Shown: positions 3,183 through 34,009 of the stretch, piece after piece | Position numbering within the stretch: position 1 is the first letter of the stretch | Layout of the letters: every line of letters starts with the position of its first letter | Origin: a virus | IMG/VR virus record: IMGVR_UViG_3300009073_000010 | Coordinates: 1-34,009 of that record | DNA: 34,009 nucleotides | Strand: one strand, 5' to 3' | The notes under the pieces: generated by a model | Told to the model about the DNA's origin: nothing | The model's database searches: none | What the model saw: the letters and a program-made list of their open reading frames with translations, nothing else | Made by a program: the position numbers and the translations under genes

Positions 3183-3242
3183 AAGCCATCCTAAGCTATC
3201 CTAAGCTATCCTAAGCTATCCTAAGCTATCCTGAGCCATCCA
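3183..3242 (+). repeat. Six tandem decamers AAGC(T/C)ATCCT
   Basis: Units start at 3183, 3193, 3203, 3213, 3223 and 3233. Four are identical, and the first and last differ at one to three positions. The 10-bp period keeps every unit on about the same helix face, as expected for cooperative protein binding. No reading frame is maintained across them. Confidence 0.92.
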
Positions 3243-3260
3243 TCACCACAAGAGCGCGCC

Positions 3261-3306
3261 TGGCAGGGACTATGCTCAGAGCATGGCAGGGACTATGCTC
3301 AGAGCA
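3261..3306 (+). repeat. Two 23-bp direct repeats, each with palindrome ATGCTCAGAGCAT
   Basis: Bases 3261-3283 and 3284-3306 are identical. Each carries the palindrome ATGCTC-A-GAGCAT (3272-3284 and 3295-3307). The leading part TGGCAGGGACTAT recurs at 3321-3333, followed by two TATCTTTGAC decamers (3331-3350). The palindrome returns at 4604, 4663 and 4698. These look like operators for a dimeric regulator. Confidence 0.85.
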
Positions 3307-3365
3307 TGGCAGCAGCGCAATGGCAGGGACTATCTTTGACTATCTTTGACTGTGTTATTTTAAAA

Positions 3366-3681: not shown

Positions 3682-3717
3682 TTCTCTTGTAAAAATAACA
3701 TGGGCAATTTTATAATG

Positions 3718-3735
3718 TTGGCACGATTCTTGCAT
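3718..3735 (+). promoter_or_regulatory. Sigma-54 (RpoN) promoter, copy 1
   Basis: TTGGCACGATTCTTGCAT is a full match to the RpoN consensus (TGGCACG-N4-TTGC), with GG at 3720-3721 and GC at 3732-3733 separated by exactly 10 bases. The predicted start is near 3745, transcribing rightward. Confidence 0.8.
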
Positions 3736-3764
3736 GTATTTTTGTCATGGGCAATTTTACAATC

Positions 3765-3782
3765 TTGGCACGATTCTTGCAT
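3765..3782 (+). promoter_or_regulatory. Sigma-54 (RpoN) promoter, copy 2
   Basis: The same 18 bases as copy 1, 47 bp further on, with the same GG-N10-GC geometry. All bases needed for RpoN recognition are intact. Confidence 0.8.
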
Positions 3783-3810
3783 GTATTTTGTCATGGGCAA
3801 TTTTACAATC

Positions 3811-3828
3811 TTGGCACGATTCTTGCAT
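3811..3828 (+). promoter_or_regulatory. Sigma-54 (RpoN) promoter, copy 3
   Basis: Third identical copy, 46 bp after the second. A LexA box lies 29 bp downstream (3857), where bound LexA could block transcripts from all three promoters. Confidence 0.8.
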
Positions 3829-3856
3829 GTATTTTGTCATGGGCAAAATCAGGTCG

Positions 3857-6386: not shown

Positions 6387-6677
6387 ATGTCAAAATCACC
6401 TACACCAACTCATCGAAAGCCATATGTAGCGCGGTCCTCAGCACTATCTACAATTTCCACCACCCCGACCTATCTACGATTTTCTCTACACCTCCCAACA
6501 GACCAACAGCCACAGCAGCCACAGCACAGGCACAATAACGCCACCCACAGCGCGCTGTGCACTATCTATACCATTGCATCCGCTACCACAAATCTATCTA
6601 CACTCCCGCCAAATAATATTACAGTTACGCCACATCTCGCCGCTGTCCACCTGGCAGCAGCGGGAGGTGCATCATGA
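6387..6677 (+). CDS. Doubtful 96-codon frame overlapping the integrase start
   Basis: ATG 6387 to TGA 6677, with the stop overlapping the integrase ATG as ATGA, which usually hints at coupled translation. Against it, there is no good ribosome binding site and the product is a low-complexity Thr/Pro/His/Ser/Gln string, as the C-rich DNA would give by chance. It may be untranslated leader of the integrase. Confidence 0.25.
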   Translation: MSKSPTPTHRKPYVARSSALSTISTTPTYLRFSLHLPTDQQPQQPQHRHNNATHSALCTIYTIASATTNLSTLPPNNITVTPHLAAVHLAAAGGAS

Positions 6678-7828
6678 GCGTCATCAAAAAAGCCAACTCA
6701 AAGAATTGGTACATCAAATTTACCGAAAATGGTGTCCCATACGAGCGTAGCTCAGGCACTCGAATCAAAGCGGAAGCCGAGGCTATAGAGCGGCAGCTCA
6801 GAACAAAACTGAGGGATGAGCGTCACAATCCCACAGCATCGGAAATCACTCTCAAAGACACGATCACAGCGTATCTTGAAGATCACACGCCACCTGTACT
6901 AAGCGCCATCTATCACCAACAGATGAGCGGCGTGTGTGATCGAATTCAAGGCACTCTCTCACCGTCAAATGCTACACGTTATCTACACGATCCAAGCAAC
7001 CCAAACCAACCCACCGCTGTCACTGTGCAGCCGCTGCAAATCACTAATATGAGTGAGATCAATGCCGCAACGCTCACAGCACACTACAGACAACGAGTAC
7101 GAGAGGGATATAAAGCCTCCACGATCCACGACGAATTTCAGATCATCAAGAGACTCATGAATTACGCTGCTGGCGATGGCAAAAATTCACCACACTCTAA
7201 GATGACGGGTTTCCCGACAATAAAAATCGGCCCTGGACGGCAGCGTGTTCTAACCGATGGCGAAATCAGAGATATCCGAGCAGCTATTACAACGACACTC
7301 CATGTCGATCTTTTTGACATGCTGAATTACACAGGCGCAAGATATATGGATATCTGCAAAATGACGTGGGCTAATATCGACGAGGCAGAAGACATCATCA
7401 CGCTCAAGCACTACAAGACAAAGAGAGCAATCGAAATACACATGTTCCCCGAAGTGGCGGCTATCCTCAAACGCCGCAAGGCAGCACCCAATGCACACTC
7501 AAAATGGGTATTTCAAAATCAAAAAAATGACAACCACCTCCACCACTGCTTGTACTGGTGGCGCAGCGCATGCAGTAAGACTGATGTAAATTCCGATGAA
7601 AAATTAGACACTGCATTAAACCCGCAGAACCATGCAGAACCAGCCGTGCCGCATCATCTCAGACATACGTTCGCCAATCGTCTGCACCGTGCGGGATTCA
7701 CACAAGAGGAAATACAGACCATGATGGGCCATAACGACCCAAAGTCGAGTCGCAGATACTCTAAACCATATGATCGAAATATCGTGATCGGTAAAAAAGC
7801 AGAGTCGGTATTTACTGATCTATTCTAG
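6674..7828 (+). CDS. int: Tyrosine-family site-specific integrase
   Basis: A 384-residue tyrosine recombinase that would integrate the phage at an attachment site. The N-terminal arm-binding region is about 1-55, the core-binding SAM-like domain about 60-175, and the catalytic domain about 190-384. The catalytic set is visible: R223 (TGARYMD), K248 or K250 in the beta-hairpin, H327-x-x-R330 (HHLRH), H353 (MMGH) and nucleophile Y362 (SSRRYSK). GGGAGG lies six bases before ATG 6674. It is followed by a terminator shared with the converging late operon. No excisionase gene was recognised nearby. The coding strand is C-rich, unlike the G-rich early genes, which suggests a separate history or the opposite replication strand. 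Confidence 0.95.
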   Translation: MSVIKKANSKNWYIKFTENGVPYERSSGTRIKAEAEAIERQLRTKLRDERHNPTASEITLKDTITAYLEDHTPPVLSAIYHQQMSGVCDRIQGTLSPSNATRYLHDPSNPNQPTAVTVQPLQITNMSEINAATLTAHYRQRVREGYKASTIHDEFQIIKRLMNYAAGDGKNSPHSKMTGFPTIKIGPGRQRVLTDGEIRDIRAAITTTLHVDLFDMLNYTGARYMDICKMTWANIDEAEDIITLKHYKTKRAIEIHMFPEVAAILKRRKAAPNAHSKWVFQNQKNDNHLHHCLYWWRSACSKTDVNSDEKLDTALNPQNHAEPAVPHHLRHTFANRLHRAGFTQEEIQTMMGHNDPKSSRRYSKPYDRNIVIGKKAESVFTDLF

Positions 7829-30536: not shown

Positions 30537-31481
30537 TTAACAGCCGTGATGTTTTCGTAGCTCATGTGCGCGCATGCCAGCGGTCGGGTCGGATGATTTT
30601 TCTATCGTTAAATCGTCATTGAGAGCATCCATTACAAACTTTTTTAATTGAGTTGCGGTGATGCTATTAGCTGGCAGACAACGGCGTAGCCATAGGTGGT
30701 CGTCTATGTGATCACTAATTGCGATGAGGTCTCGCTGCTTGACTGGATTGGTCTCTAATGATGCAAGTTCAAGGATATGATCTGAGATGATTTCGTTGAG
30801 TTCTGCTCTTTGATTCGGATTTGGTATTTCGTGCCAATGTAATTTTTGATCACGTCGATTTTTTATTTTTCTCTTTTGTTTCCTCTTTTGTGTTCTCTTT
30901 CTTTTCTTTGCTGCTTTTTTCTCTTCAATGATGTTGTCTTTGATCTGACGATACTCTTCTATTGATTCGGCTTTAGCAAGGCGTGGTACTGAGGGTGAAT
31001 CGAGTGTCGTCGACATATTGGTTAGGGGGTGATTGAGATCGGCAAACTGACAGAAAAAATGATGCTCGAAATCATCGACATGGCTGCCCTTCGGAAATGA
31101 TTTGAGGATTTTGTAATCCCATTTTATTTTATGACTGTCGAGACAGCGGATCATTTCGCGACTGCTGTATGCCCAAGATTTATGATTTTTGTTGTGTGGC
31201 TCTGTGCGATGTTCTCGCATGCGCTCAGATTTTCGGTACGTCTCTCCGATGTAGAAAATTATCTGATCAGTGTCGCCTGGCAGCTCAGTGCCGTACTCCC
31301 GAATTTCGTTGATTTGCTGGAATAGCTCGTCTCTGATTTCGCTTGGGACAGTTGTTTGATCGAAATGTAGACAATAGACGTGATGCAGACCGTCGCTGCT
31401 GCTGCTGTCTGACTGTTGGACACTCTTATTAGTGTGTTCTGTGTCTGACTTCGTCTTTGATTGCTCTTTTATTAATCCCAT
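30537..31481 (-). CDS. GIY-YIG-type nuclease
   Basis: About 314 residues from ATG 31481. An in-frame TTG at 31505 is possible but has no better ribosome binding site. The GIY-YIG core is visible: VYCLHF, then FYIGET with SERMREHR, and the catalytic Glu in DDFEHHFFCQF. The position-one GIY is replaced by YCL, as in diverged members. After it come a long Lys/Arg-rich linker (KKRKRTQKRKQKRK) and a helical C-terminal domain, which probably binds DNA. It is the first gene of the - strand late cluster. A packaging or host-DNA-degrading role is possible, as is a homing nuclease. Confidence 0.8.
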   Translation of the reverse strand: MGLIKEQSKTKSDTEHTNKSVQQSDSSSSDGLHHVYCLHFDQTTVPSEIRDELFQQINEIREYGTELPGDTDQIIFYIGETYRKSERMREHRTEPHNKNHKSWAYSSREMIRCLDSHKIKWDYKILKSFPKGSHVDDFEHHFFCQFADLNHPLTNMSTTLDSPSVPRLAKAESIEEYRQIKDNIIEEKKAAKKRKRTQKRKQKRKIKNRRDQKLHWHEIPNPNQRAELNEIISDHILELASLETNPVKQRDLIAISDHIDDHLWLRRCLPANSITATQLKKFVMDALNDDLTIEKSSDPTAGMRAHELRKHHGC

Positions 31482-31489
31482 ACAGATAT

Positions 31490-31517
31490 TTACAAAATCT
31501 GTCAAGTATCTATTAGT
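31490..31517 (+). promoter_or_regulatory. Weak candidate promoter for the early operon
   Basis: TTTACA (31490-31495) and TATTAG (31512-31517) are 16 bases apart in the divergent region between the late and early operons. On the other strand a TTGACA overlaps the same stretch. Neither is strong. Confidence 0.25.
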
Positions 31518-31557: not shown

Positions 31558-31620
31558 ATGCGAGTACGCGCTGCAAATCTCATCATAAGTATTATTGTCA
31601 ATCAGAGGAGAATCATATGA
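31558..31620 (+). CDS. Possible 20-residue leader peptide
   Basis: ATG 31558 to TGA 31618-31620 encodes a short basic, Ile-rich peptide. Its stop overlaps the next ATG (ATGA) and it contains that gene's ribosome binding site. GGG lies five bases before the ATG. It may couple or attenuate translation of the first early gene. Confidence 0.25.
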   Translation: MRVRAANLIISIIVNQRRII

Positions 31621-31847
31621 CAACGAATAATACAACTCGCAGTGCGCAAGGCAATCTACGTAATAACGTGACTAGCAAGCTGCGGCGGTTAGTACACAAG
31701 GAGATGCTTGAGCATTACAAGCGGGCTGATGAGGCGCAATACAACACTCTCTATGAGTCGATACGTGCTGAGCATGTGCAAGCGTTCGAGGATGAGTATG
31801 AGCGTGAGCTGGGTAGTTTAGATGCTGCTGATGGTGATCGCTCTTGA
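31617..31847 (+). CDS. Small helical protein, first gene of the early operon
   Basis: 76 residues. ATG 31617 follows AGAGGAG at six bases. A Ser/Thr/Asn-rich N-terminus, then charged helices with KLRRLVHKEMLEHYKRA and YNTLYESIRAEHVQAFEDEYE. The layout (basic helix, then L-Y-x-x-I-R helix) recalls the proteins at 33282 and 33588, so it may be a distant paralogue. Basic and acidic halves suggest DNA or protein binding. No family is named. Confidence 0.65.
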   Translation: MTTNNTTRSAQGNLRNNVTSKLRRLVHKEMLEHYKRADEAQYNTLYESIRAEHVQAFEDEYERELGSLDAADGDRS

Positions 31848-32950
31848 GTACTGAGATGCCTGGGCGTGATGGTGGTGATGGTGCTGAGATTTTCGCAAAA
31901 TATGATCTCAGTGCTGATCATGTTGAGTCTGCGATAGAGATACCGACAAGACCACCTGAGGGCGTAGTAATCGTAGTGGGAGCCTCAGGCAGTGGCAAAT
32001 CGACGATTCTGAGATCGTGGGGGATGGTTGAGACGGTTTTGGATCGTGATGTGCCCATATGGACATTGTTTGAGTCGGGGTTGGATGCTGAGCACTGGCT
32101 GACAGTAGCAGGATTGCGCTCTATACCGACATGGCGTCGAACTCTTAATACAGTTTCTAACGGTGAGTGTCATCGTGCCGAGGTTGCTGTTGCTCTGAGT
32201 CGCGGCTCTGAGTTTATAGATGAGTTTACGAGTTTGGTAGATCGTCAAACGGCGCGAGCATTGTGTCACTCTATTAATAGAGCTGGTCTGAGTAATCTAG
32301 TAGTAGCGACATGTCATGTGGATGTGTGCGAGTACCTACGAGCTGATCATATCTATGATGTTGATGCGGGTGAGTGGTTGGATGCTTCGGCAAGGAGGTG
32401 CCTTCGGCGATGGCATGAACCGTTGTCTCTCAAGATCCGACCGTGTGATGCGCAAGCGGTTTGGCCGAGTTTCAGCCGACATCATTATCTAGATAGCGCT
32501 ATTAATAAATCGGCAAATGCCTGGACTGCGCTGATGGATGGTAAAGCGGTTGCTTTTTTAGCAGTGATCGCAATGCCCCATCGCAATATTAAAAATGGTT
32601 GGCGGGGGCATCGTTTGGTTGTATTGCCTGAGTATCAAGGCATGGGCATCGGCAATGCTTTTCATGATGCCGTAGCGGGATTGATCGTAGAGAGTGGTTG
32701 TCGATATTTTTCTAAGGCAGCTAATGTTGCTGTGAGTATGCACCATGAAAATTCGATTTTTTGGAGGCCAACATCTAAGAATCGCAAACTACGAACGGAC
32801 TATAAGAGCGAGCGTGGTGCCGAATCGAAAGAGACTACTGCGCATATGCTCAAGCATGCAGAGAGGGTATGCACATCGCATGAGTTTGTAATACCGAGTG
32901 ATGAGGAGTTTGAGGAGTACATGTTAACCATAGGAGTAGATAAGACATGA
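31844..32950 (+). CDS. ABC-type ATPase fused to a GNAT/Mom-like acyltransferase (COG2401-like)
   Basis: 368 residues. The N-terminal ABC ATPase has Walker A GASGSGKST (46-54), a signature-like SNGECHRAEVA (105-115), Walker B FIDE (124-127) and the H-loop ATCH (155-158). The C-terminal GNAT domain (about 205-320) has the acyl-CoA loop RLVVLPEYQGMGIG (257-270). This fusion is known from archaea and phages (COG2401). Its GNAT part resembles Mu Mom, which acylates adenine in DNA, so a DNA-modifying role against host restriction is the best inference, but is unproven. The start is TTG overlapping the previous stop (TTGA). An ATG at 31856 is the alternative. Confidence 0.85.
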   Translation: MSTEMPGRDGGDGAEIFAKYDLSADHVESAIEIPTRPPEGVVIVVGASGSGKSTILRSWGMVETVLDRDVPIWTLFESGLDAEHWLTVAGLRSIPTWRRTLNTVSNGECHRAEVAVALSRGSEFIDEFTSLVDRQTARALCHSINRAGLSNLVVATCHVDVCEYLRADHIYDVDAGEWLDASARRCLRRWHEPLSLKIRPCDAQAVWPSFSRHHYLDSAINKSANAWTALMDGKAVAFLAVIAMPHRNIKNGWRGHRLVVLPEYQGMGIGNAFHDAVAGLIVESGCRYFSKAANVAVSMHHENSIFWRPTSKNRKLRTDYKSERGAESKETTAHMLKHAERVCTSHEFVIPSDEEFEEYMLTIGVDKT

Positions 32951-33192
32951 AAAAAGTAGTGAAAAAAGTAGTGAATAAAATAGTAGTAGATAGTGAAGAG
33001 CGGAAAGCTGCGGTTAAATCGTTGATTAATTTGCAGGATTATCTTTGCAATAACAGTGATGATATGACGGATGCTGAGATAGAGCGTGAGCTGGCTGTCA
33101 TTGATGCTGAGCTAGCTCGATATGCTGATGAGGATGCTGCGGCTGCGAGATCGCTCGCTGATGGTGTTGATGAGTTGGCGGGGATGAGATGA
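32947..33192 (+). CDS. Small Lys-rich then acidic helical protein
   Basis: 81 residues. ATG overlaps the stop of the ABC-GNAT gene (ATGA), so the two are coupled. A repeated basic start (KKVVKKVVNKIVV, from tandem AAAAAAGTAGTG units) is followed by an acidic, Ala-rich helical region (DAEIERELAVIDAELARY). It may be a partner of the upstream enzyme. No family is recognised. Confidence 0.6.
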   Translation: MKKVVKKVVNKIVVDSEERKAAVKSLINLQDYLCNNSDDMTDAEIERELAVIDAELARYADEDAAAARSLADGVDELAGMR

Positions 33193-33776: not shown

Positions 33777-34009
33777 ATTTTACAATATTGCATAGAGAGG
33801 TGCCGAATTGGGATACTCATGTACTACGAAATCAAAATGTTGTACATGATGAGTACAGAGTTGAGATGGGCTTTCGGGAGTTGTACGACTATATGGCTGC
33901 CAATGTTGAGACGCTGAAAGACAAAGATAATGGGATATTTTTTATTCCGTGCGACTTTGTAGATCCTGATGATGTGGAGTCATATGATGGTGCCTATAAG
34001 ATTAATTAC
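33773..34009 (+). CDS. Replication primase, N-terminal part; continues at position 1
   Basis: ATG 33773 follows GGGAGAGG at four bases and overlaps the stop of the previous gene. The first 38 codons are unique to this end. From 33887 the sequence is the terminal repeat and continues as the gene at 1-1047, giving 386 residues. The N-terminus is a short mixed region before the AEP core. A frame starting at ATG 7 alone would miss 40 residues. Confidence 0.85.
   Translation, partial: MNFTILHREVPNWDTHVLRNQNVVHDEYRVEMGFRELYDYMAANVETLKDKDNGIFFIPCDFVDPDDVESYDGAYKINY
33887..34009. repeat. Terminal direct repeat, copy 2 (identical to 1-123)
   Basis: Identical to the first 123 bases, inside the primase frame. 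It shows that the sequence closes into a circle of 33,886 unique bases. Confidence 0.95.

Follow-up and report, generated by a model that had tools for sequence, protein, structure and literature searches.

A divergent phage ABC ATPase-GNAT fusion protein predicted to acylate DNA bases

What a phage gains from a single protein that joins an ABC ATPase to a GNAT domain is the question raised by the window analysed here, a stretch of 34,009 nucleotides of viral DNA (IMG/VR record IMGVR_UViG_3300009073_000010). A sequence-only reading of it had proposed a DNA-modification or anti-restriction role and had likened the protein to Mom of phage Mu. The window carries an exact 123-bp direct repeat at its two ends (1-123 and 33887-34009) and therefore represents a complete genome, either circularly closed or terminally redundant; in addition, a tyrosine integrase gene at 6674-7828 (PF00589, E 3.6e-20) indicates that the phage is probably temperate. 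The fusion gene starts with TTG, has an in-frame ATG at 31856 as an alternative start and is not a chance ORF, since residues 31-354 of its product match phrog_11143, a family of unknown function (E 6.7e-64), and tblastn found relatives in 51 of 50,697 phage records (best E 6e-46). It overlaps both adjoining ORFs in an operon-like arrangement:

31617..31847, + strand: 76-aa ORF just ahead of the fusion gene and overlapping it; good ribosome-binding site
31844..32950, + strand: ABC ATPase-GNAT fusion, 368 aa (phrog_11143 match, relatives, model of pLDDT 90)
32947..33192, + strand: downstream, mildly acidic 81-aa ORF, overlapping the fusion gene by 4 nt

The upstream ORF probably belongs to one operon with the fusion gene. 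Beyond these ORFs, on the same strand, follow two small ORFs, a 346-aa gene and a D5-type helicase gene (1179-2879; Pfam PF08706). The 346-aa gene, found from 33773 onward with its copy repeated at 7-1047, has no Pfam match and is called primase-like from its place. The fusion gene thus lies near the start of an operon running into primase-like and helicase genes, as the sequence-only reading had noticed when it placed it next to replication genes, and this position suggests co-expression with them. That reading had also assigned the fusion a small acidic partner at 32947: such an ORF is indeed there, with a mild excess of acidic residues (18 D/E against 12 K/R), but the partnership does not hold, as the small ORFs at 31617, 32947, 33282 and 33588 had no homologue among the 32,134 ORFs of 188 loci, nor any paralogy between them, and the 81-aa ORF is not a conserved partner of the ABC-GNAT protein.

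Other features of the genome were also recorded. The minus strand at 30537-31505 encodes, divergently and next to the ABC-GNAT operon, a 322-aa protein whose GIY-YIG match is weak (14.6 bits, below the cutoff). The heptamer GGTAGTA occurs 13 times at 1054-1145, in the gap that separates the 346-aa ORF from the D5 helicase gene, where it could possibly form origin or regulatory iterons, and further tandem arrays (AAGCTATCCT six times, a 23-nt repeat 2.3 times and a 46-nt repeat 3.2 times) lie at 3183-3312 and 3699-3846, in a region with few clear genes.

The description of one protein comprising a full ABC ATPase and a GNAT domain was borne out for both halves by motifs, Pfam matches and predicted fold. 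In the list below, invariance refers to an alignment of 121 sequences, the window protein among them, built from 160 loci by excluding proteins that contained X, fell outside 330-400 aa or were near-copies (138 passed the first filters, and 120 were kept once near-copies had been removed). The coordinates are as follows:

31844..32407, + strand: ABC ATPase half, residues about 1-188 (VIA-align Z 13.8 to MJ0796, rmsd 3.0 over 165 residues; model residues 1-184)
31979..32005, + strand: Walker A, residues 46-54, GASGSGKST (G46, S48, G51 and K52 invariant)
32156..32176, + strand: ABC signature region, residues 105-111, SNGECHR (S105, G107 and R111 invariant)
32207..32245, + strand: Walker B and D-loop, residues 122-134, SEFIDEFTSLVDR (D126, E127, T129, S130 and R134 invariant)
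32315..32323, + strand: H-loop, residues 158-160, HVD (H158 and D160 invariant)
32417..32899, + strand: GNAT half, residues about 192-352 (Pfam Acetyltransf_1; Z 14.1 to 1y9k, rmsd 3.7 over 142 residues; model residues 192-351)
32480..32491, + strand: HHYL motif, residues 213-216 (H214 and Y215 invariant)
32612..32653, + strand: GNAT CoA-binding loop, residues 257-270, RLVVLPEYQGMGIG (R257, P262 and G266 invariant)

Walker A, signature, Walker B and H-loop of ABC ATPases are thus all present, in a compact domain in which Walker A and signature are just ~50 residues apart, and ABC_tran (PF00005) scored 22.8 bits, just under its cutoff of 25. The GNAT half passed the Acetyltransf_1 (PF00583) cutoff (29.5 bits against 20.7), and has the GNAT fold and the CoA loop (Q/R)xxGx(G/A), which reads QGMGIG at residues 265-270; F210 is invariant there in addition to the residues listed. 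The window protein deviates from its relatives at the near-invariant W164, P167 and W169, which follow the H-loop, and at P295. The AlphaFold model made from the 121-sequence alignment reached a pLDDT of 90 and a pTM of 0.85, and its top Foldseek match among viral models was a family member from Leptospira phage LE4 (TM 0.76).

The domain make-up and fold bear on several other functions. Annotations in several phage records, such as 'ABC iron siderophore transporter', would make the protein a component of an ABC transporter, which we regard as hardly conceivable given that the C-terminal half is a GNAT domain and that none of the 19 window proteins scanned matched a permease. Among the strongest PDB hits of the GNAT half are enzymes that acetylate proteins or small molecules (RimI, Naa50, glyphosate NAT), and this closeness to protein N-acetyltransferases, among others, together with the gene's place near replication genes, would suit a protein acetyltransferase for host takeover whose ABC half is a DNA- or protein-remodelling module; phiKMV Rac provides a precedent, described in a passage of PMC7824862. 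With the whole chain, the top Foldseek PDB match was TmcA (2zpa; E 5.4e-7), which has the same ATPase-then-GNAT order and brings in an acetyltransferase for tRNA or another RNA: the ATPase half would remodel the RNA and the GNAT half would acetylate a base, so that translation is protected or retuned in the infected cell. In Gordonia phage Axumite a gene annotated as tRNA-methyltransferase even lies just downstream. However, the TM-score to TmcA is low (0.29, rmsd 14.8), and the motor of the fusion has ABC motifs, while the TmcA ATPase is helicase-type, not ABC. A superinfection-exclusion or defence factor, in which the ABC half would sense and the GNAT domain would be a toxin-like effector, is suggested by a PADLOC match to mad3 of the MADS system (E 1.4e-10); GNAT toxins and ABC-ATPase defence systems both exist. 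An identity with mad3 itself was rejected, as the best stretch of that match is confined to the P-loop.

The distribution of the family was then considered. Pattern scans followed by alignment confirmed at least 265 relatives from 600 candidate stretches of viral contigs and at least 485 from 543 candidate stretches of genome contigs, both being lower bounds owing to the pattern-based scans; the best 80 of each set were retained and analysed. The ABC-GNAT family is widespread and mostly a phage family, occurring in many phages and prophages, and its retention across very distant hosts is unfavourable for a host-specific protein target. Iyer 2021 (PMC7824862) contains a passage on a GNAT joined to an ABC ATPase, naming pT24 among the phages that have it; an uncharacterised acyl modification of a DNA base is predicted there, with credit to Iyer 2013 for the prediction. 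Tenacibaculum phage pT24 matches the window protein by tblastn (E 1e-31, 80% coverage, 28.7% identity), with its ABC and GNAT halves annotated as two CDSs in the record; this kind of family was thus already known as a prediction, being in print with pT24. We found no experimental study of it in the open-access literature searched, and the window protein adds a new, divergent member to a family known by prediction and, as far as found, still uncharacterised.

Is the protein then a Mom? As such it was rejected: it did not match the Mom profile PF25680 at E<=1, a profile that Mu Mom itself matches at E 2.1e-75, and a whole-profile comparison with Mom gave no match either. Foldseek against viral models did place a protein named Mom, from Salmonella phage FSL SP-031, at rank 42 (E 3.4e-4). 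The sequence-only reading had called the LVVLPEYQGMGIG loop Mom-type, but it is rather the CoA loop of ordinary GNATs, because ten aligned Mom proteins read differently at that place (roughly ELNRLWLxD..GHNAE, not LVVLPDYQGLGIG). When the GNAT half alone was set against Mom profiles, P values were 0.063 and 0.0047 with 10 Mom sequences and 0.079 and 0.0092 with 50, in neither case significant. The profile alignment sets the invariant HY of Mom opposite the invariant H214-Y215 of the window family, and this correspondence is a lead only, since that comparison lacks statistical significance; among the invariant Mom residues HYS, ELxR and SxxD, the HY pair alone has a clear counterpart in the family. 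In Mom, the HY pair would serve metal binding or catalysis.

Genomic position, in turn, links the two families. In related phages Mom stands in place of ABC-GNAT in two clear two-sided cases and three looser ones, chosen from 390 locus pairs with a common flanking homologue (275 with it on the same side). Arthrobacter phages EastWest and Sonny share gene content in matching order (14 of 25 EastWest genes have homologues among 25 Sonny genes), and the EastWest ABC-GNAT and the Sonny Mom (PF25680, E 4e-61) occupy the same slot, preceded by an orthologous ParB-like gene (55% over 132 aa) and followed by genes for a DNA-binding protein (80%) and a sliding clamp (45%). The other clear case opposes locus L128, with ABC-GNAT, to L258, with Mom; both have a common 560-aa gene 5 nt upstream (70% identity) and a common downstream gene. 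The looser cases comprise Porphyromonas phages 008a and 015a, where the last tail gene (85% identical) is followed by ABC-GNAT or Mom near the record end; an ABC-GNAT/Mom swap between Enterococcus phages 9184 and Q69; and L059 compared with L257, L248 and L242, at about 100 versus 800-900 nt from the shared gene. By best match, L128, L059, L064 and L049 fall in the same half of the family tree as the window protein, the one lacking ParB (see below), and no close relatives are available for comparing the slot of the window itself.

Some of these loci have further peculiarities. In Enterococcus phage 9184 (L009, 3908-7424) the ABC and GNAT genes appear inserted in the 3' part of the DNA polymerase gene, and the GNAT ORF includes an 80-aa polymerase piece sharing 62.5% identity with the phage Q69 polymerase. 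Mom is present in the fetched stretch of 3 of 175 ABC-GNAT loci, 36 nt after ABC-GNAT in L064 and nearby in L049 and L056, and Aeromonas phage PX29 has both genes. At 6197-8993 of L049, Mom, a weak Eco57I-type methyltransferase-like gene (below the cutoff) and ABC-GNAT stand together, the last two overlapping; this cluster is perhaps a small DNA-modification island.

Furthermore, we took a census of the slot behind the L128-type upstream gene in 82 loci (the best 80 of 276 relatives, L128 and L258). Too little sequence followed the gene in 12, among them L271, whose ABC-GNAT begins at the contig edge; no gene of 120 aa started there in 46, and one did in 24. The 24 occupants, with exemplars confirmed by Pfam, were 8 C5-cytosine and 7 N6/N4 DNA methyltransferases, 1 Mom, 1 HNH, 2 ABC-GNAT and 5 unclassified genes, so that 16 of the 22 occupants other than ABC-GNAT are DNA methyltransferases or Mom. 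As a control from these loci, genes resembling those methyltransferases or Mom numbered 7 among 282 upstream of the L128-type gene and 19 among 155 farther downstream. The number of independent slot events is smaller than these counts, because L128 and L270 are near-copies and some of the methyltransferase loci are identical, and a shared slot is suggestive only, as phages swap many accessory genes. The open-licence literature searched contained no such evidence from swaps or slots.

Slot-mates that act on DNA also weigh on the alternatives. DNA methyltransferases and Mom as occupants of the same slots argue against an RNA substrate, and we consider the RNA acetyltransferase unlikely. The swaps with Mom count against a protein substrate as well, in addition to the breadth of hosts, leaving the host-takeover acetyltransferase equally unlikely. 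The defence factor appears very unlikely, as its slot-mates modify DNA and no antitoxin-like neighbour is conserved. Altogether, the genomic context points to ABC-GNAT probably doing Mom-like work.

A ParB-like gene divides the family. The tree of the 121 proteins separates a clade of 65, in which 59 have a ParB-like gene within 1.7 kb upstream, from a clade of 55 in which none has (SH-aLRT support 95 and 97; 7 of the 121 rows had too little upstream sequence for this scoring), and the ParB label changes 7 times on the tree against a mean of 40.8 after shuffling. In the ParB-linked clade, where ParB-like and ABC-GNAT genes frequently overlap or almost abut, no ParB-like gene was seen in 6 of the 65 rows. 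Exceptions to the split are L041, a ParB-less clade member with a ParB-like gene directly downstream, and L088, with one 2.4 kb upstream, past the 1.7 kb limit; L139, which has the ParB-like gene, is placed in neither clade and has a very long branch. The window protein belongs to the ParB-less clade of 55 on a long branch (1.14), with L019, L023 and L025 as its nearest tree members, and is 51% identical to L017 and L018. In agreement with its place, the window was not among the loci matched by a ParB HMM at E 1e-3, and no ParB-like gene was found in it. ParB-like genes also precede Mom, in Antuna, Sonny and L261, and a ParB-acetyltransferase fusion binds GTP according to part of PMC12704722. 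A single 611-aa ORF at 7137-8969 of L147 (Gemmataceae genome) matches both the ParB and the ABC-GNAT profiles and is likely a three-domain ParB-ABC-GNAT fusion. Among the nearest genes of the 80 viral members (109 same-strand neighbours of at least 75 aa, scanned with Pfam; L082 and L084 yielded none) there was no dominant partner (ParB_N 4, AAA_25 4, Mom 1, DNA_methylase 1), which counts against a universal co-gene.

All these data lead us to favour, as the rather probable explanation, a fusion that is predicted to couple ATP to the acylation of a base in phage DNA and so to block restriction. It is likewise fairly probable that the protein is a phage DNA-base acyltransferase doing the job of Mom by another route. 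The ABC half would bind DNA in an ATP-dependent manner, dimerising as ABC ATPases do, and would present the base; the GNAT half could then move an acyl group from acyl-CoA to the exocyclic amine of that base, and the modified phage DNA would resist host restriction enzymes. A ParB-like protein accompanies the predicted enzyme in half of the family, probably as a nucleotide-dependent DNA-binding partner, and the clade of the window does without it. Whether the full scheme applies is evenly balanced in our judgement: acylation of exocyclic amines of bases in double-stranded DNA, coupled to ATP hydrolysis, would be a second, Mom-independent way of hypermodifying phage DNA, with ParB-gated and stand-alone subtypes, the window protein being of the latter. 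The predicted DNA-modification or anti-restriction role proposed earlier thus gains support from the published family prediction, from the Mom and methyltransferase slot-mates and from the intact GNAT fold with its CoA loop. TmcA, in which an ATPase and a GNAT together acetylate a tRNA base, also counts in favour of this reading, though at the low TM-score given above. As far as found, ABC-GNAT has since 2013 existed as a prediction with no enzyme behind it; its exchange for Mom or methyltransferases is tangible ground for anticipating a new DNA modification, and cultivable phages with an intact copy are among the carriers (Arthrobacter phage EastWest, Gordonia phage Jace and Nonlabens phage P12024S). 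If true, ATP-driven chemistry would join the anti-restriction repertoire, possibly with a new modified base.

Four known systems resemble the window fusion in different respects. Partners of the ParB/Srx fold (DpdB, DndB, ParB-acetyltransferase fusions) have a counterpart in the ParB-like gene beside 59 of the 65 sister-clade members, but such a gene was found neither here nor within 1.7 kb upstream in the window's clade. The tRNA(Met) cytidine acetyltransferase TmcA likewise has an ATPase and a GNAT in one chain and a nucleobase as target, and differs in its RNA substrate and in the low overall TM-score. Mom of phage Mu (PF25680, phrog_1384) is, according to a passage in PMC7824862, a phage enzyme of the GNAT superfamily, as is the GNAT half of the fusion; it occupies the same slots in related phages, has a ParB-like neighbour in some and an HY motif that aligns, but it lacks an ABC ATPase and the QxxGxG CoA loop and is by sequence no detectable homologue of the window protein. 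The fourth is the predicted ABC-GNAT DNA-modification family itself, with which the window protein has in common both domains and their order, homology along the full length and the predicted role, while standing out as a divergent member (44% best identity in the tree) of its ParB-less, mostly viral clade.
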